Of a stretch of 64,000 nucleotides of DNA, positions 26,349 through 64,000 are shown piece after piece. The DNA comes from Congeria kusceri. Taxonomy: Eukaryota > Mollusca > Bivalvia > Myida > Dreissenidae. The first letter of the stretch is position 1. Each line of letters starts with the position of its first letter. The DNA lies in the NCBI GenBank assembly GCA_027627225.1, contig JAPFQT010000168.1, positions 387,501 to 451,500 of the forward strand, written 5' to 3'. A model generated the notes under the pieces. That model was given only the letters and a program-made list of their open reading frames with translations, searched no databases and was not told the DNA's origin. Made by a program: the position numbers and the translations under genes.

Positions 26349-27760
26349 AAAGCTGACTTACATGTGCCATGGTACTTATGTTTTAGAAGCATTGTGCTTA
26401 GGGAAAAGAAGTTACAGCATAGCAACAACTGTATAGCTATCTTGAGAAACGCCTTGCAGCATCAAGTTATTATTATACCAAATGAAAAACTAACAGTCCA
26501 AGCCTATACAGACTAAGAAATGGATTATCCAGTAACTTCTGCTCTGATCCAGGAGTGTACTGCAAGTAAATTGCCTAGTAGTGTTGAAATGAGTCCAGCA
26601 TTAATGATGTCTGGAAAGAAGAACATTACTGTTATCTTGACCAATTTGTCAACCAACACCGTATGTCTGGCACCAAAAGCTATCTTGTTCGAACTACAAC
26701 CAGTAGAAGTAACAGAAGAAGTGCTTGACAGATTAGAAGAAGAAGACAAAGACATAAAACGGCAGAAAATAGTCAAAGAACTCAGCATTGATGAAGAAAA
26801 CATACTAGAACCTGAACAACGACAAGCATTAACTGACGTTCTAATGAAACACCGCAATATATTCTCTACAAGTGACACTGATATTGGAAACTGCACAACC
26901 ATCAAACACCAAATTGATTTACATGATGCAAGACCATTTAAGCAGAGACACCGAAGAATATCAACGAAGTTAAACAGCATATAGAACAACTGTTAGCATG
27001 TAACATTATACGACCATCTAAATCTCCATTTTCATCGAACATTGTCATAGTTCGAAAGAAGAACGGAAAACTTAGACTCTGTGTTGACTACAGAATGCTG
27101 AACGACAGAACCATAAAGGATTCATTTGCTCTTCCAAGAACTGAAGAAATATTTGATTGTTTGCAAGGAGCCAAGTACTTTTCAACTGTAGACATGAAGG
27201 CAGGGTACCATCAAGTTGAAATACAAGAGGAACATAAGGAACGCACTGGATTTACTGTAGGACCACCCGGATTCTTTGAATTTAACAAGATGCCTTTCGG
27301 TTTGTTTAACAGTCCAGCCACTTATCAAAGGTTAATGCAAGAATGTTTGGGTGACTTTAAAATGAAAATATGTGTTGTTCTTGATGATTTGATAATTTTC
27401 ATCAACACCGTGTCTGAGCATTTAGAGCGGTTATAATTAGTTTTATCTAAATTGCAGGAATGTAACTTGAAACTTAGTCCTGAAAAGTGTCATTTTGGTT
27501 ATAATTAGTTTTATCTAAATTGCAGGAATGTAACTTGAAACTTAGTCCTGAAAAGTGTCATTTTGGTTATAATTAGTTTTATCTAAATTGCAGGAATGTA
27601 ACTTGAAACTTAGTCCTGAAAAGTGTCATTTTGGTTATAATTAGTTTTATCTAAATTGCAGGAATGTAACTTGAAACTTAGTCCTGAAAAGTGTCATTTT
27701 TTCAAACAACGTGTTAATTTTTTAGGTCACATTGTGAGCAACGAAGGGGTATAGACAGAT
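26349..27760 (+). pseudogene. pol: Gypsy reverse transcriptase, broken
   Basis: A linker with stops (26349-26519) leads to an open part, 26520-26984, whose end (RPFKQRHRRI) is the usual lead-in to RT. After a shift near 26965 the RT core follows: SPFSSNIVIVRKKNGKLRLC, DYRMLND, FSTVDMKAGYHQVEI, GFFEFNKMPFGLFNSPATYQ. The catalytic box reads VVLDDLIIF rather than the usual Y/F-x-DD. It then enters the 68-bp repeat, which destroys the frame. After the repeat comes CHFFKQRVNFLGHIVSNEGV. Confidence 0.85.
27429..27700 (+). repeat. 68-bp tandem quadruplication inside RT
   Basis: Four head-to-tail copies start at 27429, 27497, 27565 and 27633. I see no difference among them. The unit covers the RT segment coding LSKLQECNLKLSPEKCHF. 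Since 68 is not a multiple of three, each extra copy shifts the frame. Confidence 0.9.
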
Positions 27761-46381: not shown

Positions 46382-46621
46382 CTAACACCTAACCACAAGT
46401 TTTGCTATAGAGAGCTGCTGTGGCACCTCTATGGTCTCCAGGGTGATATTGGAAGGGTTGAAAGGGAAGGTAACTGAGTAGGAGAACTTGAGGTCCATCA
46501 GCAGTGAGGTGTCAGTGTTCTCCCTTTCCTTCAGTTTCTGTTGAATCTTGCGGATGAAGGAGATCGGGACGCGCTCCTCGAATTCGTCGACCGGCGTGTA
46601 GAGGTTTAGTATCTTCACAAT
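46382..46621 (-). CDS. MYO5: MYO5 terminal exon
   Basis: Encodes [20 protein letters not shown] and runs to [14 protein letters not shown] and the stop. Acceptor CATTTCAG. The phase-0 join to the previous exon is exact. Confidence 0.95.
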
Positions 46622-49600
46622 CTGAAATGTTACATATCCCAAAGTCTCCATGAATTTGTTTAGTACACAATGTTTAAAGCATAATTATAACAATTAGCCA
46701 GGTTCGGCTAGCTCAGTTGGTAGAGCGCTAGACTGTCAATTCGGGGATCGTGAGTTCGAATCCCAGCCCCACCACATAACTTGTGTGGGGATTGATCATG
46801 AAATTATTTCTTCGGCCATTGTCCCCCTACCTCCGATTCAAGTAGGGCAGTTGTCAGTTACTGGCATAGGTATATGCACTTAGTACTGGTAAATTGCTTA
46901 GATCGGCTAAGCTTGCCCAGGAAAAGTGTGAGTAGGTTAACTGACCGCCGTGATATGACTGAAATACTGTAAAAAACAGCAAAAATTCCTAACAAAACAA
47001 ACAAACAAACAAACTCATAAAGTTATTCATTCGAGAAAGCACAACTCAAAGGTAAGGTAAAATCACTTAACTCGATGAGTCTATCTATATTTTGTCAATT
47101 GTTTAATATATATTTTTAGTTAGAGTGTCGGATAGGGATTGGATACTAATGAAGATCTCCCATCTTTCAAAAATCATTATTATTAAAACAAGAGCTGTTT
47201 GGGTTTATATAATATATGTGGCGCGCCGTGAGAAAACCGGTCTTAATGAATGTGCGTAAAGTGTCGTCCCGGATTAGCCAGTGCAGTCTGCACAGGCTAA
47301 TCCGGGATGACACTTCCCGCCTAGAGTGGATTTGTGGTTAGAAGACACTTGATGGAACAGAAAATACCATTAAAGCGGAAAGTGCCGTCCCGGATTAGCC
47401 TGTGCGGACTGCACAGGCTAATCTGGGACGACACTTTACACACATGCATTAAGCCCGGTTTTCCCACGAGACGCCCCCTCTAGGGCCAGAGCCATCTTTA
47501 GAAAATCAAGTTTGGCAAAGATCGGATGAAAACTGTAGGACTTTGTGTTCAGAAACAGGTAAACGGGCCATTTTTTGATAATTCAAGATCATAACTCTGC
47601 AGTCGCTGAGCTGAAATGGCTAATTATCAAACTTGGCTGAGTCCATTTTCATTAAGTTTGATGAAGATCAGATGAAAAATGTTCAACATAGACTGCGGAA
47701 AAAAATTGTGTGGTCCACTGACAGACTGATCAACATTTGCAAACCAGTATAATCTGCCATCTTTGATGGGATGTGTAATAAGTTAAAGACTACGCACCTG
47801 TGGCACTGTCAGCTTGGAGCACATCTCACACACGCTGTCCACATCGGAGTCCGTCTTGCGGGCCTGCAGCAGCTGTGAGGCCTGGATGATGGGCTCCAGG
47901 CTCGAGCCCGCGCCCGACTCCTGCAGCTTGTTGTCCCGCAGCCATTGCTCCATGTGAGACAGGTTGTATCTGCAATAGTGAAAATATTAGTAATACAATT
48001 ACCAACAACTGCCATGGGAAATTAGCCAATGGCATAATAATCATATGACCACAATAATGTCCAATGGAGATAATCAGTCTACTTATTGAAGGGCCCGGCT
48101 ACCTCAGTTGGTAGAGCGTTGAACTGTCAATCCATAGATCGTGAGTTCACTACCCAGCCCGGCCACATAACTTGTGTGGGGATTGGTCATGAAATTATTT
48201 CAACGGCCATTCTCCCCCTACCTCTGATTCCAGTAGGGCAGTTGTCAGTTACTAGCACAAGTATGTGCACTTAGTACTGGTAACCCGCTTAGATCGGCTA
48301 AGCTTGCCCAAGAAAAGTGCGAGTAGCGATATGACTGAAATACTGTTAAAAACTGTGACAAATCCAAACAAAACAAACACAATCTAGAACTTTTGTTAAA
48401 GATACAGCCCACATGGTGTTGATCAAACACTAGGGAAGCTAAACTTTTGGTCATTATAAACCAACGGGAGGTAATCAACCTACATTTCATTCATCATATA
48501 TCAAAGAGAGGTAACCTCATGCGGTCCAAGGGCATGCAAATCAGGTATGAGGCTCATACCTGATTTGCATGCCCTTGGATCAGTTACACATGTCCTTCCT
48601 CAGTAGCAGATTATTAAGGGCACTTGCCCCCCAGAAGAAGTTGAAATCAAGGTAGGTAAGCACACTAAATAACTACATACCAAAGGGAGATAACCTCATA
48701 CCTGATTTGCATGCTCTTGGACCAGTTACACATGTCCTTCCACAGTTGCAGATTATTAAGGGCATTTGCCCCCCGGAAGAAGTAGAAATCAAGGGAGGTA
48801 AGCACACTAAATGACTACATACCAAAGGGAGATAATCTCATACCTGATTTGCATGCCCTTGGACCAGTTACACATGTCCTTCCTCAGTAGCAGATTATTG
48901 AGGGCACTGGCTCCTAGGAAGTAGTAAACCTGTCTGAAGATCTGCTTGATCAGCTCTGGGTCCACCGCGTGCTGGGTGAGAACTCGCAGGAACAGGTTCA
49001 TCTGCAAATCAGAATTCATTTTTTTCACCATTGATAATCTGGGGGCGAAATGTACGAATGCAAAATATCTAAATTTATATTGTCTGTGCTATATTCCTCT
49101 ACCTGAATTATAATGCTTGTATTTTCCGAATGTTTCTGAATGTTTTGACACTGATGACTAATGTAACTGGAATGTTTAAAAAAAAATTCAAAATGTAAAA
49201 AATGAGACTTCCAAAAACCGCCATCTTAGGTTACACTCCACATGTAACACCTGAATTGCTAAAAAAGCAATTCTCTGACTAGCCCAAATAATCTAGTGCC
49301 AAAAATCTCCAATGTCTCATTAAAACGAGCTTCATTCAATAAAGAATAGTCATTTGTCACAAGGCATATTAAGTTAAATTTTAATACATAATCTAGATAC
49401 ATGTATTATCTATAAAAATATTATCTATACAAATAATTATCTATACAAATAATTATCTATAAAAATACATTACCAAGATAATTATATACATAATGTAGAT
49501 AAATATATTATCTACATAAAAACATTATCTAGATATAAACATTATCTAGATATCTACGTACAGATTTCATGAGACTATCCAGGGAGTATTCAGGCGTGTC

Positions 49601-52600
49601 CTCAGCCCGACTTGAACTCCGACCCCGCAGACCACTTGGTTTGCTCCCTGTCAGGCCTGCGATTGCCTCGTGTTCAAGAACTGCCGGAACTAAATGGGGA
49701 ATAACAAAATATGGGATGAAATTGTTAGATTGAAATGTAAAATGGCAAAACCAGGGTGGCATCTTGGCATCTTAAATTAGGAAGTAATACTTCCTGATAT
49801 TTCCCTGACCGAAAAGTGGTTTTCCATGACATTTATTATCAGATTACTGGCAAAATTATTGCAAAGAAATTATTGTGCGTACAAATTGTACACAACTATA
49901 ATATTTAAATTGTTTCATCGTCACAAGAATATTATTATTTCCAAAAGTCTATAGTTCACTTTTCCAGAATTCCCTAATTGTCCCCTAATTTTTTTCAAAT
50001 TTTTTTTTTTCTCCTGCCTGCAGGGAATTGTTTCCATTTTTTCCCTGTTTTCCGAGTCCAGTGGGTTTTTTTTACATTTGAGGGAAAAGCGGCGGGGCCC
50101 TTCAGATGGGGAATTTTACGGCAAAAGGGGATTTTTTTTAGAAAAGAATTATAACATGTTTATATTCTACTTTGATATAAAACATTAATAAATTGTTTTC
50201 CTACAAATGATAACTTGGATTAACTTGGTTTGATGAAAAATTGCTGGGATTGTTATGAAAACTCCTATCTTAGCCAATTTTTTTTCAGATTTTGGTCTTC
50301 TTTTTTTTCAAAATGAAGCTGTATTCTGAGGGGAATTTTAAGGTAAATTTAGGGGAAAACTAGATACTTTTTAAGCTGGGGAATGGGGCCAAATTTCGGC
50401 CCCAAATTGGCCCTAAAAAAAACACTGCTGAGTCAGGGGCCACCCTTCAAAGAACCAGCCAAATAAAATGGTTTCATAAGTTTATGTTTCGTTTCTGTCT
50501 TTCATAGTAACAAAATAACATCACAGTACTGTTTTCAGAATGTTCTCTGTAAAATATTGCTCATGATGGCAAGTAATGGACTAACCCCAAGTCTGCCTAT
50601 ATAAAACTGAGAAGTTGAGCAAGCTCAACATCAACAAGTCACACTGCGTACGGTCTTGTGCTAATTTCAAACACTATAATATTACCTATAGATAATTATT
50701 AGGGTAACCAACCGACTGTCACGTTATACCTATAGAAGGCTGTATGGTAGCCTCCATGTTCTTGATCAGTGTCTGATAGATCCACACTGCGAGGTCACTG
50801 AACACCTGCCGGTACTCGGACAGGTCAAAATTGCGCAGGCAGTGCTCGTTCTGGCGAGGGGTGTTCTCCGTCTGGAACTGTTTCTCACCGCTGTACTGTT
50901 TAAGCGTGTGCAGGAACCGACATGTGTTGGCCAGCCAGAGAGTGACGCGCTCTACATCATCGTGGTGTTTCTGGGAAATAAAATTTCAAATATAGCACAA
51001 CACTCAATATGTGCTACACGTTTTGGTAAATACATGTCACAATGGGCAACATTCCAGAAACTTTTGTAATTTAAATACATCCTTGATATTAAAATCATCA
51101 TTTGTGGCGCGTCATGGGAAAACCGGACTTAATGCATGTGCGTAAAGTGTCGTCCCGGATTAGCCTGTGCAGTCCGCACAGGCTAATGCAGGACGGCACT
51201 TTCCGCCTACAGTGAATTTATGTTTAGAAGAGACTTCCTTGTAACAGAAAATACCATAAAAGCGGAAAGTGCCGTCCCAGATTAGCCTGTGCGGACTGCA
51301 CAGGCTAATCCGGGACGACACTTTACGTACATGCATTAAGTCCGGTTATCCCACGACGCCCCTCATTTTCTTTCACTGTAAGATATGGTAACTTTAGCTT
51401 TATTTGCTGTTGCAAGGTTGTTATTATTACCCGATTATTTGATAATGACAACGCTGTGTTGGTACCATAATGACAACGCTGTGTTGGTACCATAATGACA
51501 ACGCTGTGTTGGTACCATAATGACAACGCTGTGTTGGTACCATAATGACAACGCTGTGTTGGTTCCATAAACCCATTCAAGCCCCAGTCCATATAATATA
51601 ATTCAATACATCTTCAATTGGAATTAGTTCTAATAAAAGTTAACGACATTCATTTTATAATGTCTATGTTCAAAAACGCTTGGTACGAACGGAATATACA
51701 TGTACATTCTGATTTTACTCAAGAGGCATCACCAGCTATCGATTACAGATAACTATATGATAAAAAGTTACCAAAACATTATTATTTTACCGATTTCAAT
51801 GCGGTGTTTTGTATTTTGATTGGTAAAATGTCCATTAAAAACATTTTTTTTCTTTAACATATTGCTGGACAGCTGCTTTAAATTTATATAATTTCCGGTA
51901 CACATAATTAGCGGTCTAGTTAGAAGGTCGTGACAGGTTTCTTACACGACGCCCAATTATGTCACCACCACACCACACAACATGATTATACCAGTATCAG
52001 TCATTAACAGACAAATCATTACTGCAAGAGAGTATACTCCCCTTTATAAACATTTTTGTAGTAAGAGTAAACTTTTCAAAATATAATAATATAACAGAGA
52101 TATTTATTAATAGACAAACATAAAATATCGCAAATATTTAAATGTGACATTGAATTTTTCTACATTTCTGGGAACATTTTAGTGCACCAAAATTATCAGT
52201 TATAATTATGGTAAATGATCTAAGATAAAAGTCATGTGAGTGCATGATACAAAAGCCATCGGTGCTCGTTACCTTGACGACCTTCTTGATGCCGTTGATG
52301 GTGCTGGTGAGGAAGGACCTCACTTTCTCGTCATCGTTGATGAAGTCAGTGTGTCTCACACACATGAACAGTAGATATGCTGGCAGACCCGGCATTAGGC
52401 ATGTTGCAACCTTCGGTTTTAACTCTGGAAAGCCAATGAAAGTTTTCTTATTTAAATTGTGCGACACAGAGGTTTTGACTACAGTTAAACAGATAAGATT
52501 CATAAAATTAATCCTGTGGCTGTTTCATGAACAGGTCTAAATTTTATCTGAGAATTTCACTTATGAACGTCTGAAGTTAACATTTCCCTTAGGAGCTTTG

Positions 52601-55600
52601 TGCCTTACCCACGTTGAGAGCCTTGATGTGGGAGATGTCATAATTCCCCATACTACCCAGGACGAGAGCCTTGATGTGGGGGATTTCATAATTCCCCATA
52701 CGACCAGGATGAGAGCCTTGATGTGGGAGATTTCATAATTCCCCATACTACCCAGTATGAGAGCCTTGATGTGGGAGATTTCATAATTCCCCATACTACC
52801 CAGTATGAGAGCCTTGATGTGGGAGATTTCATAATTCCCCATACTACCCAGGATGAGAGCCTTGATGTGGGAGATTTCATAATTCCCCATACTACCCAGT
52901 ATGAGAGCCTTGATGTGGGAGATTCATAATTCCCCATACGACCCAGGATATAAGCCTTGATGTGGGAGATTTCATAATTCCCCATACTACCCAGGATGAG
53001 AGCCTTGATGTGGGAGATTTCATCATTCCCCATACTACCCAGGATGAGAGCCTTGATGTGGGGGATGTCATAATTCCCCATACTACCCAGGATGAGAGCC
53101 TTGATGTGGGAGATGTCATAATTCCCCATACTACCCAGGATGAGAGCCTTGATGTGGGAGATGTCATAATTCCCCATACTACCCATGATGAGAGCCTTGA
53201 TGTGGGGGATTTCATAATTCCCCATACTACCCAGGATGAGAGCCTTGATGTGGGAGATGTCATAATTCCCCATACTACCCAGGATGAGAGCCTTGATGTG
53301 GGAGATGTCATAATTCCCCATGCTACCCAGGATGAGAGCCTTGATGTGGGGGGTTTCATAATTCCCCATACTACTCAGGATGAGAGCCTTGATGTGGGAG
53401 ATTTCATAATTCCCCATACTACCCAGGATGAGAGCCTTGATGTGGGAGATTTCATAATTCCCCATCTACCCAGGATGAGAGCCTTGATGTGGGGGATTTC
53501 ATAATTCCCCATACGACCAGGATGAGAGCCTCGATGTGGGCGATTTCATAATTCCCCAAATTACCGAGTATGAGAGTCTTAATGAGGGGCATTTCATAAT
53601 TCCCCATACGACCAGTATGAGAGCCTTAATGCGGGGCATTTCATAATTCCAAATATTACCCAGCACTAGAGCCTTCATGAGGGGCATTTGATAATGCCCC
53701 ATATTACCCAGTATGAGAGCCTTGATAAGGGGGATTCCATAATGCCCCATATTACCCAGTATGAGAGCCTTGATAAGGGGGATTCCATAATTCCCCATAT
53801 TACCCAGTATGAGAGCCTTGATGAGGGGCATTTCATAATACCCCCTAGTACCTAGTATGAGAGCCTTAATGAGGAGTATTTCATAATTCCCCATATTACC
53901 CAGTATGAGAGCCTTGATGAGGGGCATTTCATAATTCCCCATACGACCCAGGATGAGAGCCTTAACGAGGGGCAATTCATAATTCAGTATGAGAGAGCCT
54001 TGATGAGGGGCATTTAATAATTCCCCATATTACCTACTATGAGAGCCTTGATGAGGGGGATTTCATAATTCCCCATATTACCCAGTATGAGAGCCTTGTT
54101 AAGGGGGATTTCATAATTCCCCATATTACCCAATATGAGAGCCTTGATGAGGGGCAATTCATAATTCCCCTAATTACCCAGTATGAGAGCCTTGATGAGG
54201 GGGATTTCATAATTCCCCATATTACCCAGTATGAGAGCCTTCATGAGGGGCATTTCATAATTCCCATATTACCCAGCATGAGAGCCTTCATGAGGGACAT
54301 TTCATAATTCCCCATATTACACAGCATGAGAGTCTTGATGAGGGGCATTTCATAATTCCCGATATTACCCTGTATGAGAGACTTGATGAGGGGCATTTCA
54401 TAATTCCCCATATTACCTAGTGTGAGAGCCTAGATGAGGGGAATTTCATAATTCCCCATATTACCCAGTATGAGAGCCTTAAGGAGGGGCATTTCATAAT
54501 TCCCATATTACCCAGCATGAGAGCCTTGATGAGGGGCATTTCATAATTCCCCATATTACCCAGTATGAGAGCATTGATGAGGGGGATTTCATAATTCCCC
54601 ATATTACCTAATATGAGAGCCTCAATGAGGGGGATTTCATAATTCCCCATATTACCCAGTATGAGAGCCTTAATGAGGGGCAATTCATAATTCCCCATAT
54701 TACCCATCATGAGAGCCTTGATGAGGGGCATTTCATAATTTCCGATATTACCCAGTATGAGAACCTTGATGAGGGGCATTTCATAATTCCTCCTATTACC
54801 CAGTATGAGAGCCTTGATGAGGGGCATTTCATAATTCCCCTATTACTCAGCATGAGAGCCTTGATGAGGGGCATTTCATAATTCCCCATATTAGAATGAG
54901 AGCCTCAATGAGGGGCATTTCATAATTCCCCATATTACCCAATATGAGAGCCTTAATGAGGGGCATTTCATAATTCCCCATATTACCCAGTACGAGAGCC
55001 TTGATGAGGGGGATTTCATAATTCCCCATATTATCCAGCATGAGAGCCTTTATGAGGGCATTTAATAATTCCCCATATTACCCAGTATCAGAGCCTTGAT
55101 GAGGGGCATTTCATAATTCCCCATATTACCTAGCATGAGAGCCTTAATTAGGGGCATTTCATAATTCCCTATTTTACCCAGGATGAGAGCCTTAATTAGG
55201 GGCATTTCATAATTCCCCATATTACCTAGTATGAGAGCCTTGATGAGGGGGATTTCATAATTCCCCATATTACCTAATATGAGAGCCTTAATAAGGGGGA
55301 TTTCATAATTCCCCATATTACCCAGTATGAGAGCCTTAATGAGGGGCAATTCATAATTCCCCATATTACCCAGCATAAAAGCCTTGATGAGGGGCATTTC
55401 ATAATTTCCGATATTACCCAGTATGAGAACCTTGATGAGGGGCATTTCATAATTCCTCCTATTACCCAGGATGAGTGCCTTGATGAGGGGCATTTCATAA
55501 ATCCCCTATTACTCAGCATGAGAGCCTTGATGAGGGGCATTTCATAATTCCCCATCTTACCTAGTATGAGAGCCTTAATGAGGGGCATTTCATAATTTCC

Positions 55601-58600
55601 CATATTACCCAGTATGAGAGCCTTGATGAGGGGGATTTCATAATTCCCCATATTATCCAGCATGAGAGCCTTTATGAGGGCATTTAATAATTCCCCATAT
55701 TACCCAGTATCAGAGCCTTGATGAGGGGCATTTCATAATTCCCCATATTACCTAGCATGAGAGCCTTAATTAAGGGCATTTCATAATTCCCTATTTTACC
55801 CAGGATGAGAGCCTTAATTAGGGGCATTTCATAATTCGCCATATTACCCAGTATGAGAGCCTTATTGACGGGCATTTCATAATTCCCTATTTTACCCAGT
55901 ATGAGAGCCTTGACCAGTGGAGTCTCGTCCTCCTTCTTGTACTCCAGCATGCCCATGTAGTTCCTCTCCCGGTGCCTGATGTGGGCCACGTTCTCCACAC
56001 TCTTCGTCTCCTCCTTCTCAAGGTCTGCCTGGATTTCTGCCGCTGCAAATGTAAATGGCAATGTTAGTGCTAAGGGAGACAACTGAAGGAGCAAAAATGT
56101 TACAATTAAGGGAAACAAATCTGATCATGTTAATAATGTATCTAAAGGACATAATAAATGTTGAGTCTGCAACCAAAAGATTTTTAAGTTTCCTAATTTG
56201 CAAACTGCTTGGATTAATGCCACTAAAAGTGCTAAAGGTGAAGTTAGAACTAAGGGAGCCAACTGCTTTAAAGTCTTAAATGTGTATGATAAAAGAAAGG
56301 GAGATTACTCTGATTCTTATTCTGAAAATTGGTAGCAAAGTTCAAATGAAAATGTTACCAGTAAGGGGAATTATTCTGATAATACTGATAATTTATCTAA
56401 AGGACAAAATGATTGGACTTCAACCTAAATAATTTGCCATCTGCCTGAATTTCTGCCACTGAAAGTGCAAATGGCAATAGTAGAACTAAGGGAGACAACT
56501 GTGTTAATCAGGTAATGGATGTGCAAATGGAAATACTAGAGCTAAGGGAGATGACTGCTGAAATCTAATTATGTAAGGGACATAATTTATGATAAGTCTG
56601 GTTGGCAACTTAAATATTTATATAGTATAGCTGGTAATTTAAATATTTATTTATTTTCCTAATTTACAGATTGCATGGAGTTCTGCTGCTTAAATACAGA
56701 GGAAATATTAGAGCAAAGGGAGACAACTTATGACAGTGCAATAAGTAAGGGAGATTACTCTGACAATATAGGAATAATATCTAAGGATTTTACTGATGGT
56801 TAATAAACAGCCAAGGTAGACAACTAAAGATTTGACAATGTTACAAGTAAGGGAGATTACTCTGAAAATAGTGATGATATATCCAAAGGACATAATAGGT
56901 GATTAGTTTGGACGACAACCTAAATATTTATAAAATTTCCTTATTTGTCAACTGCCCAGATTTCTGTCGCTTAACATGCAAATGGCAATATTGTAACTAA
57001 GGAAAACAACTTATTTTATTGATACTGACATTATATCCAAGAGACTTAATGTAACTGCAAGCTGCAGTGAACTATAAAGACGAGGGGTGTTGAGATATAC
57101 CAGGAAACCTAATAAAGACAGTTTCATTATTGCTAAGCAACACTACCACATGTATATACTTCGTCATCCCTTCGATACTGGACTCTTCTTTCCTTGACTC
57201 AGTTTGTTTGTCATCACGTAAATTTGAATTCCATCAGAAATTAAAATCGGTTTAAATTTTGTTGATAATGAGGGGATCAACCATTTATTGTAAATAGGGG
57301 GAATCCTATTTTTTTGTTTAAAAACACGCTGTTATCGTCTGCAGTTTATATCGTTTAATTTACCTCTATCGATTAGTCCATGTTTATAACGGTTCTCACT
57401 TGCATTTTTACGGACTGTACAAATATGTTTAAACATCTAAACAATAATGTCCAAATTTTCCATTTGTTGTTACAATGGACAGGCTCCATTTTAGTGTGCA
57501 AATGTGTGACTTGCACATTCTTATTTTTAATTTTATTATAATTAACGAAAAAGATCCAACAACATGTATACAATTTGCCTATACATGCATAAAACAGGCA
57601 CATGGGTGAAATCATGTCAACAGTACTAACACTTCAATAATTCACTGTACCGTAAGAAAAAAACACCAAATAATGATGAAAAAAAACAACTAAAACCGAG
57701 TTGTAAACAAAAAGAGTGCTAGTACTTTCTCTTAAAATCCTCCCATAATAAACCTGACCTATTGCAGAAATGCTCGTTCCACACAAGAAATCCACTTTAT
57801 TCATTTTAATATGACTGTGCAGATATTATATTTATGTCCAACACTAAAACAAACTTCAAGTTATGTTTCCTATGGATAATTGGTGTTTAATGTGATCACT
57901 GCACTTTTAAATACAGAGAGTGAGAAAAACAAACCAGGAAAATGATATTTTAGTTTTTTGAAACTTTCCATTTATATTTTTTTCTTCATCAGAAGATTTG
58001 GACACTTACAAAATAATTATTTTCAAGTGTCCACAAACATAATTCAAAGGAGGTACTTATTTTCACAAATCAACAGCTTTGATGCCATTGTTTCACTGAA
58101 ACACAACACAATATTTCTTGATACGTCTGAATTCAGGGCCTACACAACTTAACTGAAATTGAAGCAGGAAGTCATACAAGAAAAAGAAGAATTAAACCTA
58201 GTATTGTGCAATGTTACTTCAATGACCATGAAAGAAGGTCATCAAAAAATACCAATCGTGCATGAGTGCCTGGTGTGTTGCCATTGTGTACTATTATTCA
58301 TGCATATCATATCACGGAAAAAATAGCGAATTTCAAAAACGAAGGAAAAAGAAATAAATTACAACAGCAGGTCGTATGCACATGTATGCAGGCATCTTAC
58401 CCGTGGTTGGACTGAGGGACATGGAGGATGTGAACAGAGGTCTGTACGATCTCCCAGGTACTCCTGACATGGCAGCCATGGTACAAACAAAATGTGTTAC
58501 CATGGAGAACTTGGTAATCAGAGAAAACTTAGTTGTCAACTAGTTATTTAAGAGAATTTGCATAGGGAAAATAAACAGAGTTGGACTGCATACTATACAG

Positions 58601-60683
58601 GTATGGACTCAAATGAAACTGGATGTAGATGACAATAGGATGACGATGATGATGATGATGATGATGTAACAAGATATGAGGCATGTTGTGGGAAAACAGG
58701 GTTTAATGCATGTGCATAAAGTGTCGTCCCAGATCCGTCTTTGCAGTCTGCACAGGTTAATCCCGGACGACACTTTCCGCCTACAGTAGATCTATGTTCA
58801 GATGAGACTTCTTGAACTAGAAAATAACATAAAAGCGGAAAGTGTCGGGACTTCAATAACGACTTCCATGTGCCTTTTTTAGGTTTAAACTTTCCAGTTT
58901 AAAGGAAAAAGATTTTGTCCAATTGTGACTCATCTATAGTTACCGAACATACATACATAAACAAATGCTTTGCAATGAAAGCATGGGACACGACACCATA
59001 TTTAAACATCACCTTCTCCCTCATTCAGTCTCTTTGCATACATGGGTCACACACAACCATATTTAACTTGCACCTTCTCCCTCCTTCAGTCTCGTGGCAT
59101 ACATCGGTCACACACAACCATATTTAAACTTCACCTTTTCCCTCCTTCAGTCTCTTGGCATACTTGGGTCACACACAACCATATTTAAACTTCACCTTTT
59201 CCCTCCTTCAGTCTCTTGGCCTATATGGGTCACACACAACCATATTTAACCCTCACCTTCATCCCCTTTCTGTCTCTTGGGATACATTAGTCACACACAA
59301 TCATATTTAACCCTAACCTTCACCCCCTTTCTGTCTCCTGGCATACATGGGTCACACACAACCTTTTTTAACCCCAACATTCACCCCCTTTCTGTCTCCT
59401 GGCATACATGGGTCAAACGCAACCATATTTAACCCTCACCTTCACCCCCTTTCTGTCTCATGGCATATATGGGTCACACACAACCTTTCTTAACCCTAAC
59501 ATTCACCCCCTTTCTGTCTCCTGGCATACATGGGTCACACGCAACCTTTTTTAACCCTAACATTCACCCCCTTTCTGTCTCCTGGCATACATGGGTCACA
59601 CACAACCTTTTTTAACCCTAACATTTACCCCCTTTCTGTCTCCTGGCATACATGGGTCACACACAACCTTTTTTAACCCTAACATTCACCCCCTTTCTGT
59701 CTCCTGGCATACATGGGTCACACGCAACCTTTTTTAACCCTAACATTCACCCCCTTTCTGTCTCCTGGCATACATGGGTCACACACAACCTTTTTTAACC
59801 CTAACATTCACCCCCTTTCTGTCTCCTGGCATACATGGGTCAAACGCAACCATATTTAACCCTAACATTCACCTCCTTTCTGTCTCCTGGCATACATGGG
59901 TCACACACAACCATTTTTAACCTTTAACCCTCACCTTCACCCCCTTTCTGCCTCATGGCATATATGGGTCACACGCAACCATATTTTACACTGACCTTCT
60001 CCCTCCTTCAGTCTCATTTACACTTTCAACATCTTCAGCGCAAAACTAGATTTATTCTTTATAAAGTCACACATAAGTTATCACAGTTCTGCACTAACAC
60101 TCACCTTCTCCCCTCCTTGAGTCTCTTGGTGTACACCTTCAACAAAGGCTTTACATTTCTGTAGCTCTGTGCAAAACTGTGTTAATTCTAGTAAGTTACA
60201 AATAAGGTACCACAGTTTTGCACTCACCTTTCCCTCCTTCTTTCTCTTGGCGTTCAACAATGGCTTTACATTTCTGTAGCTCAGTGCAAAACTGTGTTAA
60301 TTCCTAATAAGTTACAAATAAGTTACTACAGTTTTGCACTCACCTTCCCCTTCCTTCAGTCTCTTGGCGTACACCTTCAACTATGGCTTTACATTTCTGT
60401 AGCTCAGTGCAAAACTGTGTTAATTCCTAATAAGTTACAAATAAATTACTACAGTTTTGCACTCACCTTCCCCTTCCTTCAGTCTCTTGGCGTACACCTT
60501 CAACTATGGCTTTACATTTCTGTAGCTCAGTGCAAAACTGTGTTAATTCCTAATAAGTTACAAATAAGTTACTACAGTTTTGCACTCACCTTCCCCTTCC
60601 TTCAGTCTCTTGGCATACACCTTCAGCATCTTCTTCAGCTTCCTGATCTGCTCCTCCTGCTGGTCTACCTTCTCTCGTAGATC
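46382..60683 (-). CDS. MYO5: Class V myosin, tail-encoding exons
   Basis: Nine exons with consistent phases, in transcription order: 60590-60683, 58401-58463, 55896-56042, 52273-52424, 50730-50970, 49562-49689, 48844-49001, 47798-47969, 46382-46621, about 464 residues. They encode the end of the coiled coil, a short linker and the globular DIL tail, which binds cargo adaptors on vesicles moved along actin. Diagnostic pieces are [88 protein letters not shown] and [20 protein letters not shown]. The order and content match animal MYO5A. Motor, IQ and most coiled-coil exons lie beyond 64000. Introns carry MITEs, SINEs and unusual exon-edge repeat arrays. Confidence 0.95.
46697..47034 (+). mobile_element. 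tRNA-derived SINE, copy 1
   Basis: The head has an A box (TAGCTCAGTTGGTAGAGCGC) and a B box (GAGTTCGAATCCC). The body has TAGGGCAGTTGTCAGTTACT and GATCGGCTAAGCTTGCCCAG, and the tail is (AACA)n-rich. It lies in a MYO5 intron, opposite to transcription. A sister copy is at 48090. Confidence 0.85.
47217..47478. mobile_element. Foldback MITE, copy 2
   Basis: The most complete palindromic copy. Each arm carries its own inner palindrome (left 47257-47312, right about 47380-47435) built from GGATTAGCC..GTGCA..GGCTAATCC, nested inside the outer inverted repeat. It lies in a MYO5 intron. Confidence 0.9.
47479..47797 (-). other. MYO5 intron remainder
   Basis: Non-coding; contains short AAGTTTGGCAAAGATCGGATGA / AAGTTTGATGAAGATCAGATGA repeats (about 47510 and 47656) typical of a dispersed repeat. 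Confidence 0.5.
47798..47969 (-). CDS. MYO5: MYO5 exon: DIL region part 5
   Basis: Encodes [20 protein letters not shown], then [20 protein letters not shown] and [11 protein letters not shown]. Acceptor TATTGCAG, donor GTGCGT. Noticeably GC-rich compared with its surroundings. Confidence 0.95.
48090..48382 (+). mobile_element. tRNA-derived SINE, copy 2
   Basis: Same family as 46697-47034, with A box TACCTCAGTTGGTAGAGCGT and the same body and AACA-rich tail. It is clearly diverged and lies in the next MYO5 intron. Confidence 0.85.
48523..48581. repeat. Near-perfect 59-bp palindrome of exon/donor sequence
   Basis: Two 29-base arms around a single G (48552), with one mismatch at the outer end. 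The arms are the last exon bases (GCATGCAAATCAG) plus the donor GTATGAG of the MYO5 exon at 48844-49001. It sits at the far end of the exon-edge triplication, so the last unit has an inverted partner. Confidence 0.85.
48559..49001 (-). repeat. 142-bp exon-edge triplication in MYO5
   Basis: The true exon (48844-49001) is followed in the intron by two copies of its last ~85 bases, its donor and ~57 bases of intron. Donor ends are at 48844, 48702 and 48559 (periods 142 and 143). The nearest copy reads [20 protein letters not shown]; the far copy has a stop (MCN*SKG). Both keep CAAATCAG before GTATGAG but lack the exon's acceptor, so they look like spare 5' splice sites rather than spare exons. 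Confidence 0.85.
48844..49001 (-). CDS. MYO5: MYO5 exon: DIL region part 4
   Basis: Encodes [20 protein letters not shown], then [20 protein letters not shown]. Acceptor ATTTGCAG, donor GTATGA. Its 3' half is present twice more downstream. Confidence 0.95.
49391..49559 (-). repeat. AT-rich ~16-bp tandem repeat abutting a donor
   Basis: Read on the minus strand, the MYO5 donor GTACGTAGATAT leads straight into TCTAGATAATGTTTA repeats and then GTATAGATAATTATTT repeats. Low complexity limits interpretation. Confidence 0.6.
49562..49689 (-). CDS. MYO5: MYO5 exon: DIL region part 3
   Basis: Encodes [20 protein letters not shown], then [10 protein letters not shown]. Acceptor CATTTAG, donor GTACGT. 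The intron side of the donor opens into a short AT-rich tandem repeat (49391-49559). Confidence 0.9.
49690..50729 (-). other. MYO5 intron with dispersed repeat text
   Basis: Non-coding. About 49980-50420 resembles a common molluscan repeat (TTTCCCTGTTTTCCGAGTCC, GGGGAATTTTA and GGGGAAA blocks). Near 50680 the sequence CTATAGGTA (minus strand) repeats the exon end/donor text of the exon at 50730; this may be chance. Confidence 0.5.
50730..50970 (-). CDS. MYO5: MYO5 exon: DIL region part 2
   Basis: Encodes [20 protein letters not shown], then [32 protein letters not shown] and [17 protein letters not shown]. Acceptor TTTCCCAG, donor GTATAA. Confidence 0.95.
51103..51365. mobile_element. Foldback MITE, copy 3
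   Basis: Same family as 47217-47478, with both inner palindromes well preserved and GTGGCGCGTCATGGGAAAAC ends. Confidence 0.9.
51442..51566. repeat. 25-bp minisatellite, five units
   Basis: Five units of ATAATGACAACGCTGTGTTG + GTACC start at 51442, 51467, 51492, 51517 and 51542. It is not derived from any neighbouring exon that I can see and sits between two MITEs. Confidence 0.9.
51580..51877. mobile_element. TTAA-type MITE, copy 2
   Basis: Diverged copy of 43075-43423, with ends AGCCCCAGTCC and GGACAGCTGCT. The left flank is TTCA (mutated TTAA) and the right flank TTAA. Confidence 0.7.
51878..52272 (-). other. MYO5 intron remainder
   Basis: AT-rich; nothing recognised. Confidence 0.5.
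52273..52424 (-). CDS. MYO5: MYO5 exon: DIL region part 1
   Basis: Encodes [20 protein letters not shown], then [18 protein letters not shown] and [11 protein letters not shown]. Acceptor CTTTCCAG, donor GTAACG. The leading AG completes the Glu codon begun in the previous exon. Confidence 0.95.
52602..55925 (-). repeat. 48-bp exon-edge array in MYO5, about 69 units
   Basis: A 3.3-kb array grows out of the 3' end of the exon at 55896-56042. On the minus strand each unit contains the exon-end text CATCAAGGCTCTCATACTGG, then a GT-starting donor and a short intron piece, GGGGAATTATGAAAT. The units encode an uninterrupted 16-residue repeat, [16 protein letters not shown]. Two subfamilies are visible: GATGAGGGGCATTTC (about 53560-55920, donors GTAATA) and GATGTGGGAGATTTC (52602-53560, donors GTAGTA). 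The last unit (52602), nearest the next exon, has GTAAGG, the best consensus match. Local blocks (about 54417-55040 and 55062-55663) look like larger duplications of the array. Confidence 0.95.
55896..56042 (-). CDS. MYO5: MYO5 exon: start of globular tail
   Basis: Encodes [20 protein letters not shown], then [20 protein letters not shown] and ALIL. It ends CTGG before a GTAAAA donor and completes a Glu codon with the next exon. It is flanked by repeat copies of its own ends on both sides. Confidence 0.9.
56027..57010 (-). repeat. Degenerate acceptor-side copies upstream of a MYO5 exon
   Basis: The 5' end and acceptor of the exon at 55896-56042 (plus-strand text GCCTGGATTTCTGCCGCTGC) recur upstream in the intron at about 56207, 56443, 56673 and 56954, at intervals of 180-280 bases. 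Each is followed by AAGGGAGACAACT-type text. They are more decayed than the donor-side array; most have lost the AG. Confidence 0.7.
57011..58400 (-). other. MYO5 intron
   Basis: AT-rich non-coding sequence; no repeat family or gene recognised. Confidence 0.5.
58401..58463 (-). CDS. MYO5: MYO5 exon: 63-nt cassette linker
   Basis: Encodes about 21 residues ([20 protein letters not shown]) between the coiled coil and the globular tail. Both junctions are phase 1 and 63 is a multiple of three, so skipping it keeps the frame. Vertebrate MYO5A has alternatively spliced small exons in the same part of the tail. Acceptor CATGTCAG, donor GTAAGA. Confidence 0.75.
58633..58668. repeat. (GAT)n microsatellite
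   Basis: Short GATGAT run directly before the truncated foldback MITE. Confidence 0.85.
58678..58850. mobile_element. Foldback MITE, truncated copy 4
   Basis: Left arm and centre of the TGTGGCGCG family (GTTGTGGGAAAACAGG, AAGTGTCGTCCCAGAT, AAAAGCGGAAAGTGTCGGG). It ends before the right arm. Confidence 0.8.
58995..60046 (-). repeat. 61-bp exon-edge array in MYO5, about 16 units
   Basis: On the minus strand the units read TATGCCAAGAGACTGAAGGA (upstream end) to TATGCCAGGAGACAGAAAGG (downstream), then GGG and GTGAATG/GTGAAG, then an intron-like piece TTAGGGTTAAAAAAGGTTGT. The first part is the 3' end of the exon at 60590-60683 ([10 protein letters not shown]) with its donor. Units farther from the exon (59340-59840) are more uniform than those at the edges. 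Confidence 0.85.
60047..60589 (-). repeat. 123-bp exon-edge array in MYO5
   Basis: Copies of the last ~35 exon bases with donor end at 60467, 60344, 60228 and 60105, below the true donor at 60590; steps are 123, 123, 116 and 123. The first two copies keep GGGGAAG before GTGAGTGC unchanged. The intron part (GTAACTTATTTGTAACTT and so on) is shared too. 123 is 41 codons, giving a long plus-strand open frame that is not a gene. Confidence 0.85.
60590..60683 (-). CDS. MYO5: MYO5 exon: end of coiled coil
   Basis: Reads [20 protein letters not shown], then [11 protein letters not shown]. The acceptor is TTTTCCAG, the donor GTGAGTGC. Starts in phase 0 and ends after one base of a codon. Its last ~35 bases and donor are repeated downstream in the intron. 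Confidence 0.9.
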
Positions 60684-62273: not shown

Positions 62274-63893
62274 CTAAGCATATTTATGATGCTTAAGGTG
62301 TGGAAGACTGTCATAATCAGGTTTGGGGTCACTCATGCCCTTGCCGTAGTGTAATTCCTCATGCAGTTTGTATCGATAATTCCGCGTCCTGGCACGTAAA
62401 GCTCGTGCTTTGTTGGTAGCGGATGTTTGCTTTCGGTTAAGGTCGTTGCGGTCCTCATATGCTATCTGCTTAATAATCTTTGACCCCTGGGTAAGGTTAG
62501 CATTTAGTTCAGTGGTTTTTGCAATTACAGAGTCAGCATAGCCATTGTTTAATTTGTGAACCTGCCCGTGAATTCGACCTACACAGTTGCGTGAGAAAGT
62601 CACAGTTTTAGGATTGACAGCTTGGTACGACCTGTTTACTGCTTCACTTTTTTGGGTTGTGGTTAAAAGTTTGGTAGCGTCAAGAGCAGCTGGACCTAAA
62701 ACCATTTCAATGCATTTTTTAAGGACTTGTTGGTCACTGTCAACCATTTTAACCTTGACATTGTCTGGCATGAAATTCTTAGCTTGCCTATTTGTACCAG
62801 CACAGACATAACTGTACTTTGCACAATGAGTATCGCAGTAACCACTGAAGCATAGAACAATGGTTGCGATTACATCAACCATGACCTTCTTTAGAACCTT
62901 GATGTCACCCTGGTGTTTATTGTGGGCAGCTTTAAGCTCAGCCATACACCTAGCTTTGACCGAGAGAGCGAACCGACTCCTGATATTAGACTTGGAATGA
63001 CCCTTGAGCATGCCCTTTGAGAAAGGCGCTTTGTTGAGCTCGCGCTTCAGCGAGTTGCCTAGGTGCCTCAGATCCTTAAGATGACCCACATTGTGACCGT
63101 GAGAGTTACGAACACCTTGGAATGCCCTACTGTCCCCATCACATGTGAAATTTGTTATTTTGATGTCCTTAGAGATCTGGTCACCTAACAACCTATTCCA
63201 TTTGCCTTCATCACCTATTGGTTCCCTCTCTGAAACATTTGCAGAACAATGCCCCCTATGATTGGGGCACTGAACAGGTTTACCCTTATTCCTAAGCATT
63301 GATGCAGTCCTGCATAGTTTATTTGCTACTTGTACCCCTACAATTTGCTTGTTTCTGGTATTGTTTTCACACATAGTGCTTATGGCAATAGTTCCGGCTT
63401 GAAAGGGTGTCGCGTCAGAGTTAAAAATTGGATTGTTGTAGCAAGTGTCCCCTTCAACATTTACCTTAGAGGGATCTTTTTGACCAATTTTGGCATTTTC
63501 AGCAACTAAGTTTTCTCTAATCTGGTACATGCTTCTCTCATTTAGGGATTTAAGGGCAGTATTGACCTTATTTGCTTGTTTTTGCATAGCAAGTGGAGAG
63601 GGAGCAATGATATTGGTTGTGTTGAGAATTCTCCGGGAACCTGTGTTCCCAATAGAAGTACTTGCAACACCTATTTGGAAGCCTACATTGATCTGAGCTG
63701 CCTTTCTGCCCCTGGTACTTGATGGAACCTCATTGTAAAGCTTATAATGCTTGCCTACATATCTGCATCTTGTACATTTTAACCTTTCCTCCCAGCCTAA
63801 GCCCCACTTTATGGAAGCACTGCCGTCAATTACCAAGTCGCCCCTACATTTATCACTTCTTAACCTATGCTTTCTATTTTCAGAGGACATCAT
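62274..63893 (-). CDS. Mutator-like transposase-related protein
   Basis: Open frame of 539 codons from the ATG pair at 63893; the frame stays open to the window edge, so the true N-terminus may lie beyond. N-terminal Cys pair LKCTRC, then STRGRKAAQINVGFQIG and IIAPSPLAMQKQAN. Possible DDE residues are in VNVEGDTCYNN (D), FTCDGDSRAF (D) and TTTQKSEAVNRS (E), arranged as in Mutator-like (MULE) transposases. CPNHRGHCSAN and FSGYCDTHC may bind zinc. The tail is basic (KARALRARTRNYRYKL). It is convergent with the His-Me nuclease gene and lies within a MYO5 intron on the same strand. The frame is intact, suggesting recent activity. Superfamily placement is from motif order only. Confidence 0.6.
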   Translation of the reverse strand: MMSSENRKHRLRSDKCRGDLVIDGSASIKWGLGWEERLKCTRCRYVGKHYKLYNEVPSSTRGRKAAQINVGFQIGVASTSIGNTGSRRILNTTNIIAPSPLAMQKQANKVNTALKSLNERSMYQIRENLVAENAKIGQKDPSKVNVEGDTCYNNPIFNSDATPFQAGTIAISTMCENNTRNKQIVGVQVANKLCRTASMLRNKGKPVQCPNHRGHCSANVSEREPIGDEGKWNRLLGDQISKDIKITNFTCDGDSRAFQGVRNSHGHNVGHLKDLRHLGNSLKRELNKAPFSKGMLKGHSKSNIRSRFALSVKARCMAELKAAHNKHQGDIKVLKKVMVDVIATIVLCFSGYCDTHCAKYSYVCAGTNRQAKNFMPDNVKVKMVDSDQQVLKKCIEMVLGPAALDATKLLTTTQKSEAVNRSYQAVNPKTVTFSRNCVGRIHGQVHKLNNGYADSVIAKTTELNANLTQGSKIIKQIAYEDRNDLNRKQTSATNKARALRARTRNYRYKLHEELHYGKGMSDPKPDYDSLPHLKHHKYA

Positions 63894-64000
63894 AGACTGA
63901 GTAGGACGGGGACATAGACCTTGTTCGTAAGTAAGTCGGGATGGACTTTTGATGGAGCAGGAACCCGTAACAGGTCTACATAGCGAATCTTGTTCGCTCT

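Follow-up and report, generated by a model that had tools for sequence, protein, structure and literature searches.

Tandem repeats that span exon–intron junctions in a myosin V tail gene and in other genes of Congeria kusceri appear to reflect a known type of mutation at unusually high frequency

Results and discussion

A myosin V tail gene and its copies

The window, by which we mean the whole 64,000-nt stretch of Congeria kusceri DNA that was analysed, covers positions 387501-451500 of contig C168, a 464-kb contig in an assembly (G000) of 1.55 Gb and 1071 contigs. Its minus strand carries nine myosin-V tail exons with AG and GT edges, which upon joining give one open frame with a stop; the translation of E1-E8 was compared with the PDB chains of myosin Va, where the best match reached E = 2e-132 over 312 residues. 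Three of these exons, all on the minus strand, are central here. E1 (60590..60683) encodes the end of the coiled coil and was assigned by its AG/GT edges and frame, E3 (55896..56042) by edges, frame and alignment, its end VKALIL/E corresponding to VKNLILE of myosin Va, and E7 (48844..49001), which encodes part of the DIL domain and ends in NWSKGMQIR, by edges, domain and alignment. A Mutator-like transposase open frame (PF20700, E = 9.1e-43) is located at 62277-63998, approximately 1.6 kb upstream of E1.

The tail is a multi-copy sequence. E3 was found 18 times in the assembly, a count that is a lower bound, with 97-100% identity and with two occurrences being partial; these are spread over contigs C3, C166, C168, C194, C226, C242, C363, C45, and C19, and five of them lie between 81.3 and 84.7 Mb on the chromosome-size contig C3. 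A search for myosin heads, in which 65 of 268 candidates were scored, returned 82 matches. Three of them fall at C3:84.806-84.828 Mb, and the joined sequence of two exons from this group was nearest to myosin Va. Given this coverage of the head search, it is likely rather than proved that the MYO5 tail was multiplied apart from its head by partial-gene amplification. Eleven copies of the tail locus were compared, namely that of the window and 10 of the 17 others, which were fetched from the assembly. All nine exons are free of stops in six of the eleven, one copy has nine exons with one stop, and four copies lack one or two exons.

Arrays that start inside exons and run across their donors

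The earlier note had described tandem arrays after E1, E3, and E7 with periods of 123/61, 48, and 142 bp, and both TRF and shuffle-tested alignments confirmed them, all on the minus strand. At E1, a 123-bp array of 4.3 units (60098..60625; TRF and donor alignment) comprises the last 36 nt of the exon, the donor and intron sequence, and is accompanied by a 61-bp array of 16.6 units (58995..60015; TRF and alignment), whose unit contains a 34-nt match to the E1 end and donor. The 48-bp array at E3 (52605..55913; TRF) consists of 69.5 units built from the last 18 nt of the exon, the donor and 30 nt of intron, and its units differ from each other, with 89% matches. At E7, a 142-bp array of 2.6 units (48553..48926; TRF and donor alignment) unites 63-83 nt of the exon end, as given by two TRF runs, with the donor and intron. 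The same gene also contains a purely intronic 25-bp array of 5.2 units (51442..51570, minus strand; TRF), which served as a comparison array. All three donors are thus spanned by arrays whose starting point lies within the exon, at a depth that varies from one exon to the next, and not at the exon edge, from which copying had been proposed to start. The final unit of the E7 array is directly followed, at 48523-48581, by about 29 nt of the E7 end and its donor in inverted orientation, a near-perfect copy such as template switching would leave.

For each donor, 30 nt of exon and 40 nt of intron were aligned to the following intron and compared with 60 dinucleotide shuffles. The scores were 135 for E1, 92 for E3 and 125 for E7 versus shuffle maxima of 29, 30, and 24, so that chance alignment is ruled out for the junction-straddling pattern at these exons. 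The same alignment test gave scores of 16-18, inside the shuffle range, for the donors of E2, E4, E5, and E8, and the E6 donor scored 32 versus a shuffle maximum of 29, with a match confined to the intron. A 17-bp array (49386-49552; TRF) starts at most 10 nt after the E6 donor. At their donor ends, E3 and E7 can be aligned to myosin Va, which identifies the exon as the source of the array in these two cases; for E1, the only such row is 7yv9, covering query residues 1-384.

Copies of an acceptor upstream of E3

The claim that such copies never include the acceptor was contradicted at E3. Alignment of this acceptor with the upstream intron gave a best score of 73 versus a shuffle maximum of 23, and a further alignment placed four diverged copies on the minus strand, at 56205..56265 (score 45), 56440..56501 (score 79), 56672..56728 (score 49), and 56952..57011 (score 53), which include the first 18, 19, 17, and 18 nt of the exon, respectively. 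Each joins about 42-43 nt of intron to this exon part, and they start 223, 459, 686, and 969 nt upstream; a fifth copy has no exon part. The series is a degenerate tandem with steps of approximately 225-285 nt that yielded no TRF row, and three or four of its copies score at least 35 in each of the 11 locus copies. The E1 acceptor scored 33 versus a shuffle maximum of 27 owing to a weak 39-bp intronic repeat without exon sequence, and no score above the shuffles was obtained in this alignment test for the remaining acceptors of the gene.

Unit number varies between locus copies

Minisatellites, or VNTRs, are head-to-tail repeats with units of about 10-150 bp and a variable number of units. TRF found the 48-bp array in all 11 locus copies with 57.5-148.4 units, the 61-bp array in all 11 with 12.6-37.7 units, and the 123-bp array in all 11 with 2.3-4.3 units, whereas the 142-bp array, detected in nine of the 11, is constant at 2.5-2.6 units. 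The intronic 25-bp array, present in all 11 copies as well, ranges from 3.2 to 26.1 units. Both the unit lengths and the differences in unit number between copies, here copies within one assembly, are those of minisatellites, and the arrays are VNTRs shared by descent among the paralogous loci. The suggestion that the arrays arose independently therefore needs dividing: differing in period and exon, the arrays at E1, E3, and E7 are separate events, but they did not arise anew in each locus copy, having been inherited by the paralogues.

Junction-spanning repeats in other genes

We were curious to know how such repeats are distributed beyond the tail gene, and 60 stretches were drawn from lists of domain matches without sight of their sequence (of the C15/C65 pair, C15 alone was used). 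Forty of them surround myosin-head matches with 600-nt flanks; because two matches fall in L066, with an intron between them, these stretches account for 41 of the 82. The other 20 surround SNF2 matches with 300-nt flanks and cover 20 of 63. The 120 edges tested are edges of domain matches, with splice sites checked for those that proved positive, and some matches have a boundary within an exon or extend beyond it (e.g., L029, L053, L063, and L077), so that positives per real junction are probably somewhat more frequent than positives per edge.

At a score of at least 40, junction-spanning repeats were found at 10 of the 120 edges, in 10 of the 60 stretches, seven at donors (L030, L034, L045, L053, L073, L077, and L078) and three at acceptors (L035, L044, and L047). 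The MYO5 tail gene is hence not alone, and its three positive exons out of nine are compatible with the sampled proportion of 10 in 60 (Fisher P = 0.22). Nor is the copying restricted to donors, as L035, L044, and L047 show in addition to E3. Inspection by eye showed GT or AG at the exon edge in each positive, with exon parts ranging from approximately 17 to 80 nt, which argues for the lack of a fixed breakpoint. Eight of the positives are arrays with periods of 36 to 92 bp; the other two, L044 and L053, are single old copies, which count among the 10 but lie outside the set of eight whose match crosses the edge. Two of the positives, L045 and L047, come from the myosin-V head on C3.

Several candidates were set aside. 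A 35-bp array in L049 was dropped as an acceptor case, since it stops well short of the exon and has only CCAC in common with it. In L057, a 77-bp array (L057:760-1163) begins with the donor GT and includes no more than about 5 nt of exon; it was left uncounted, as was the array in L059, which looks like the far end of the L035 array (same intron, similar units). L063, whose array goes with the donor of the exon before, was rejected as an acceptor case and is outside both the 10 and the eight; this 57-bp array (L063:1-692) has a unit of about 51 nt of myosin exon end and 6 nt of intron (GTGAGG), an in-frame length.

TRF arrays in the 60 stretches numbered 13 in the flanks and 10 overlapping a match edge. 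None with a period of at least 20 lay wholly inside the 14,146 matched letters, where 3.1 were expected at flank density (P = 0.047). Outside the tail gene, the window holds four identical 68-bp copies at 27429-27700, within the reverse-transcriptase region of a decayed LTR retroelement.

Duplications blind to exon edges as the proposed origin

We consider it probable, though well short of certain, that these minisatellites were founded by ordinary local tandem duplications that happened to straddle exon–intron junctions. Duplications of tens to hundreds of base pairs would arise often in this genome, blind to exon edges. One that fell wholly inside a working exon would alter the protein and be lost. 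A duplication straddling a donor, on the other hand, would leave the original exon and donor upstream of the extra copies, and one straddling an acceptor would leave the original exon and acceptor downstream of them; in both situations the exon-proximal splice site would presumably still be used and the mRNA remain unchanged. Such copies, if neutral, could then diverge and, through unequal exchange or slippage, gain or lose units in the manner of a VNTR. From the sequence data we infer the mutational mechanism, the splice sites used and the neutrality of the copies. Local duplication of this edge-blind kind would account for the variable breakpoints, for repeats on both sides of exons and in several genes, and for the VNTR behavior, and arrays with exon sequence would sit across exon edges because purifying selection purges copies inside exons.

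Are junctions hot spots of tandem duplication?

A different reading, which we regard as possible but doubtful, holds that tandem duplication in this lineage is concentrated at junctions, and perhaps mostly at donors. Breaks linked to transcription or splicing (R-loops) could be one cause, the abrupt shift in base composition where exon meets intron another. In the full form of this reading, to which we give the same tentative standing, junctions, and donors more than acceptors, would be true birthplaces of arrays at several times the rate of intron interiors, affecting about one exon in six, with break-and-repair tied to transcription or splicing as the likely cause. The comparison with random points bears on this directly. 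Of 2080 points in the flanks of the myosin stretches, 40 in number, 110 were positive (5.3%, with an interval of 2.5-8.5% by resampling of stretches), and the same one-sided test gave 125 of 4149 (3.0%) for points in the window outside the gene, among which mobile-element and other open frames are included. At the ordinary cut-off, the 10 of 120 edges compare with 5.3% at P = 0.10, which weighs against a hot spot, and with 3.0% at P = 0.004. Donors alone (7/60) exceed 5.3% with P = 0.04, whereas acceptors alone (3/60, P = 0.62) are at about the background. Inclusion of the MYO5 tail edges gives 14 of 137 (P = 0.014). Within the tail gene itself, 52 of 689 intron points were positive (7.5%) versus four of its 17 junctions (P = 0.03), a set chosen after the fact.

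The excess grows with stringency, which speaks for the hot-spot reading. When the match had to cross the edge, eight of 120 edges stood against 4.3% of flank and 2.8% of window points (P = 0.14 and 0.02). The background fell to 3.5% and 2.4% at a score of at least 60 (P = 0.06 and 0.009), to 2.7% and 1.8% at 80 or more (P = 0.016 and 0.001), and to 2.1% and 1.1% at 100 or more, where there were still eight of 120 edges (P = 0.004 and 5e-5). Two or more copies within reach were found at four of 120 edges versus one of 2080 flank and 15 of 4149 window points (P = 4e-7 and 0.001). Since the control points are clustered and the background was taken as exact, all these P values flatter the excess. 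Donors outnumber acceptors by 7:3 in the sample (one-sided P = 0.17) and by 10:4 once the MYO5 tail is included (P = 0.09), and arrays that start at a donor or at most 10 nt from it without exon sequence, as in L057 and beside E6, point in the same direction, as does the probably higher rate per true junction. On the other side, the sample consists of two gene families and one window. We conclude that the junction rate is of the same order as the background, and that a moderate excess at junctions or donors is plausible and unproved. The dedicated process proposed in the earlier note, to be judged by comparing junctions with random points, is accordingly neither clearly upheld nor clearly refuted: an excess is seen over the window background and under strict settings, but at the ordinary cut-off it does not separate from the flanks. 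Founding by edge-blind duplication remains the reading that we prefer.

Are the extra donors kept by selection?

The additional donors could instead be retained by selection as spare or alternative sites, lengthening the protein in steps of 16 residues at E3, which we deem improbable. Several features would fit. GT is intact in 19 of 19 aligned copies at E1, 64 of 66 at E3 and two of two at E7 (85 of 87 together), although high retention at these exons alone would not separate youth from selection. Two of the periods, 48 and 123, are divisible by three, and the first few 48-bp units (within 55687-56124, minus strand) are open in the E3 frame, which would make use of an inner donor possible, adding 16-residue steps. 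A column test was performed on 801 units of the 48-bp array, taken from nine of the 11 locus copies (C3b and C168c closely duplicate C363 and C194a and were omitted). The donor G and T were kept in 96% and 97% of units, in a unit whose 48 columns range in conservation from 0.51 to 0.99 and whose exon-derived columns and intron columns after the donor average 0.925 and 0.919, respectively; GT is thus no better conserved than other columns. The donor drifts at +3 and +4 (0.76 and 0.60), and one-base deletions that break the frame are frequent. In these 801 units, column conservation gave no sign of selection for spare donors, contrary to the redundant-donor selection considered previously. In the sampled genes, GT is intact in just two of six copies in L073 and four of seven in L030, compared with 12 of 13 in L034, three of three in L045, five of six in L077 and four of five in L078, while the single copy of L053 reads GAG/GTATGG by eye. 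The acceptor AG is intact in seven of eight copies in L035, four of eight in L047, one of one in L044 and four of four at E3. Besides, seven of the 11 donor-array periods (61, 142, 88, 92, 65, 47, and 52) are not divisible by three.

That the arrays are assembly artefacts is very improbable: the gene lies in a multi-copy region, and the window on a 464-kb contig, where assemblies err, but the imperfect match among the 48-bp units, the recurrence of the arrays on the chromosome-size contig C3 and several other contigs, and the occurrence of like arrays in genes elsewhere all argue against it. Equally remote is exonisation, in which the arrays came first and the exons grew into an intronic repeat. 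Against it stand the alignment of E3 and E7 with myosin Va at their donor ends and the recovery of the sampled exons through conserved domains, even though the first residues of E3 (AEIQAD) lie outside the myosin Va alignment, so that its acceptor side could be exonised repeat.

Under the favored reading, edge-blind duplication at junctions, the point to note is how common junction-spanning repeats are in this genome, and their frequency is worthy of follow-up. As each array holds a piece of a known exon, it records the place and direction of a tandem duplication, and with such records in 10 of 60 exon stretches, the birth of tandem duplications and its relation to transcription and splice sites could be measured. 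The arrays also offer a means to study how splicing tolerates dozens of decoy sites. For annotation, they are a warning that decoy exon ends could pass for extra or alternative exons.

Comparison with known systems

Introns can be gained by tandem duplication of an exon segment that holds AGGT. The present arrays likewise involve tandem duplications carrying splice sites; in contrast to that route, it is the edge of an existing intron that was duplicated here, and no new intron was shown. The human CBS duplication c.844_845ins68, which is single and forms no array, can be likened to L044 and L053 with their one old copy each.

Another precedent is the 31-bp VNTR of human CBS, c.1444_1467+7(16_21), for which 16-21 copies and allele frequencies in two populations are reported (PMC2630376). 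We read its name as 24 nt from the end of an exon followed by 7 nt of intron, a donor-spanning unit that fits the stated 31 bp and resembles those of the arrays described here. As in CBS, exon sequence is joined to its own splice site in the alignments of both the MYO5 tail and the sample, and this is observed at donors or acceptors, with seven donors and three acceptors in the sample and three and one in the MYO5 tail. The CBS VNTR is one human locus, whereas several junctions are affected here, with array periods of 36-142 bp and up to 148 units; the E3 acceptor series, with steps of 225-285 nt, is also unlike the 31-bp unit.

De Grassi and Ciccarelli (2009; PMC2812944) described variable tandem repeats at exon–intron boundaries of human duplicated genes and reported their enrichment in large groups of recent paralogues and 80 modifications in 210 human loci, on average four copies of 30 bp. 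These, too, are boundary minisatellites that vary between recent paralogues, and they are able to change splicing. Set against those human loci, such repeats occur here in 10 of 60 sampled stretches and reach 148 units at MYO5. Because the CBS VNTR and the human boundary repeats, as presented in these sources, are exon–intron boundary repeats of the same kind, the kind is already known, and the arrays do not represent the undescribed class for which they had been put forward. Found at both exon starts and exon ends in several unrelated genes, the repeats of Congeria kusceri appear to stem from a known type of mutation that is unusually frequent here, not from a new system.
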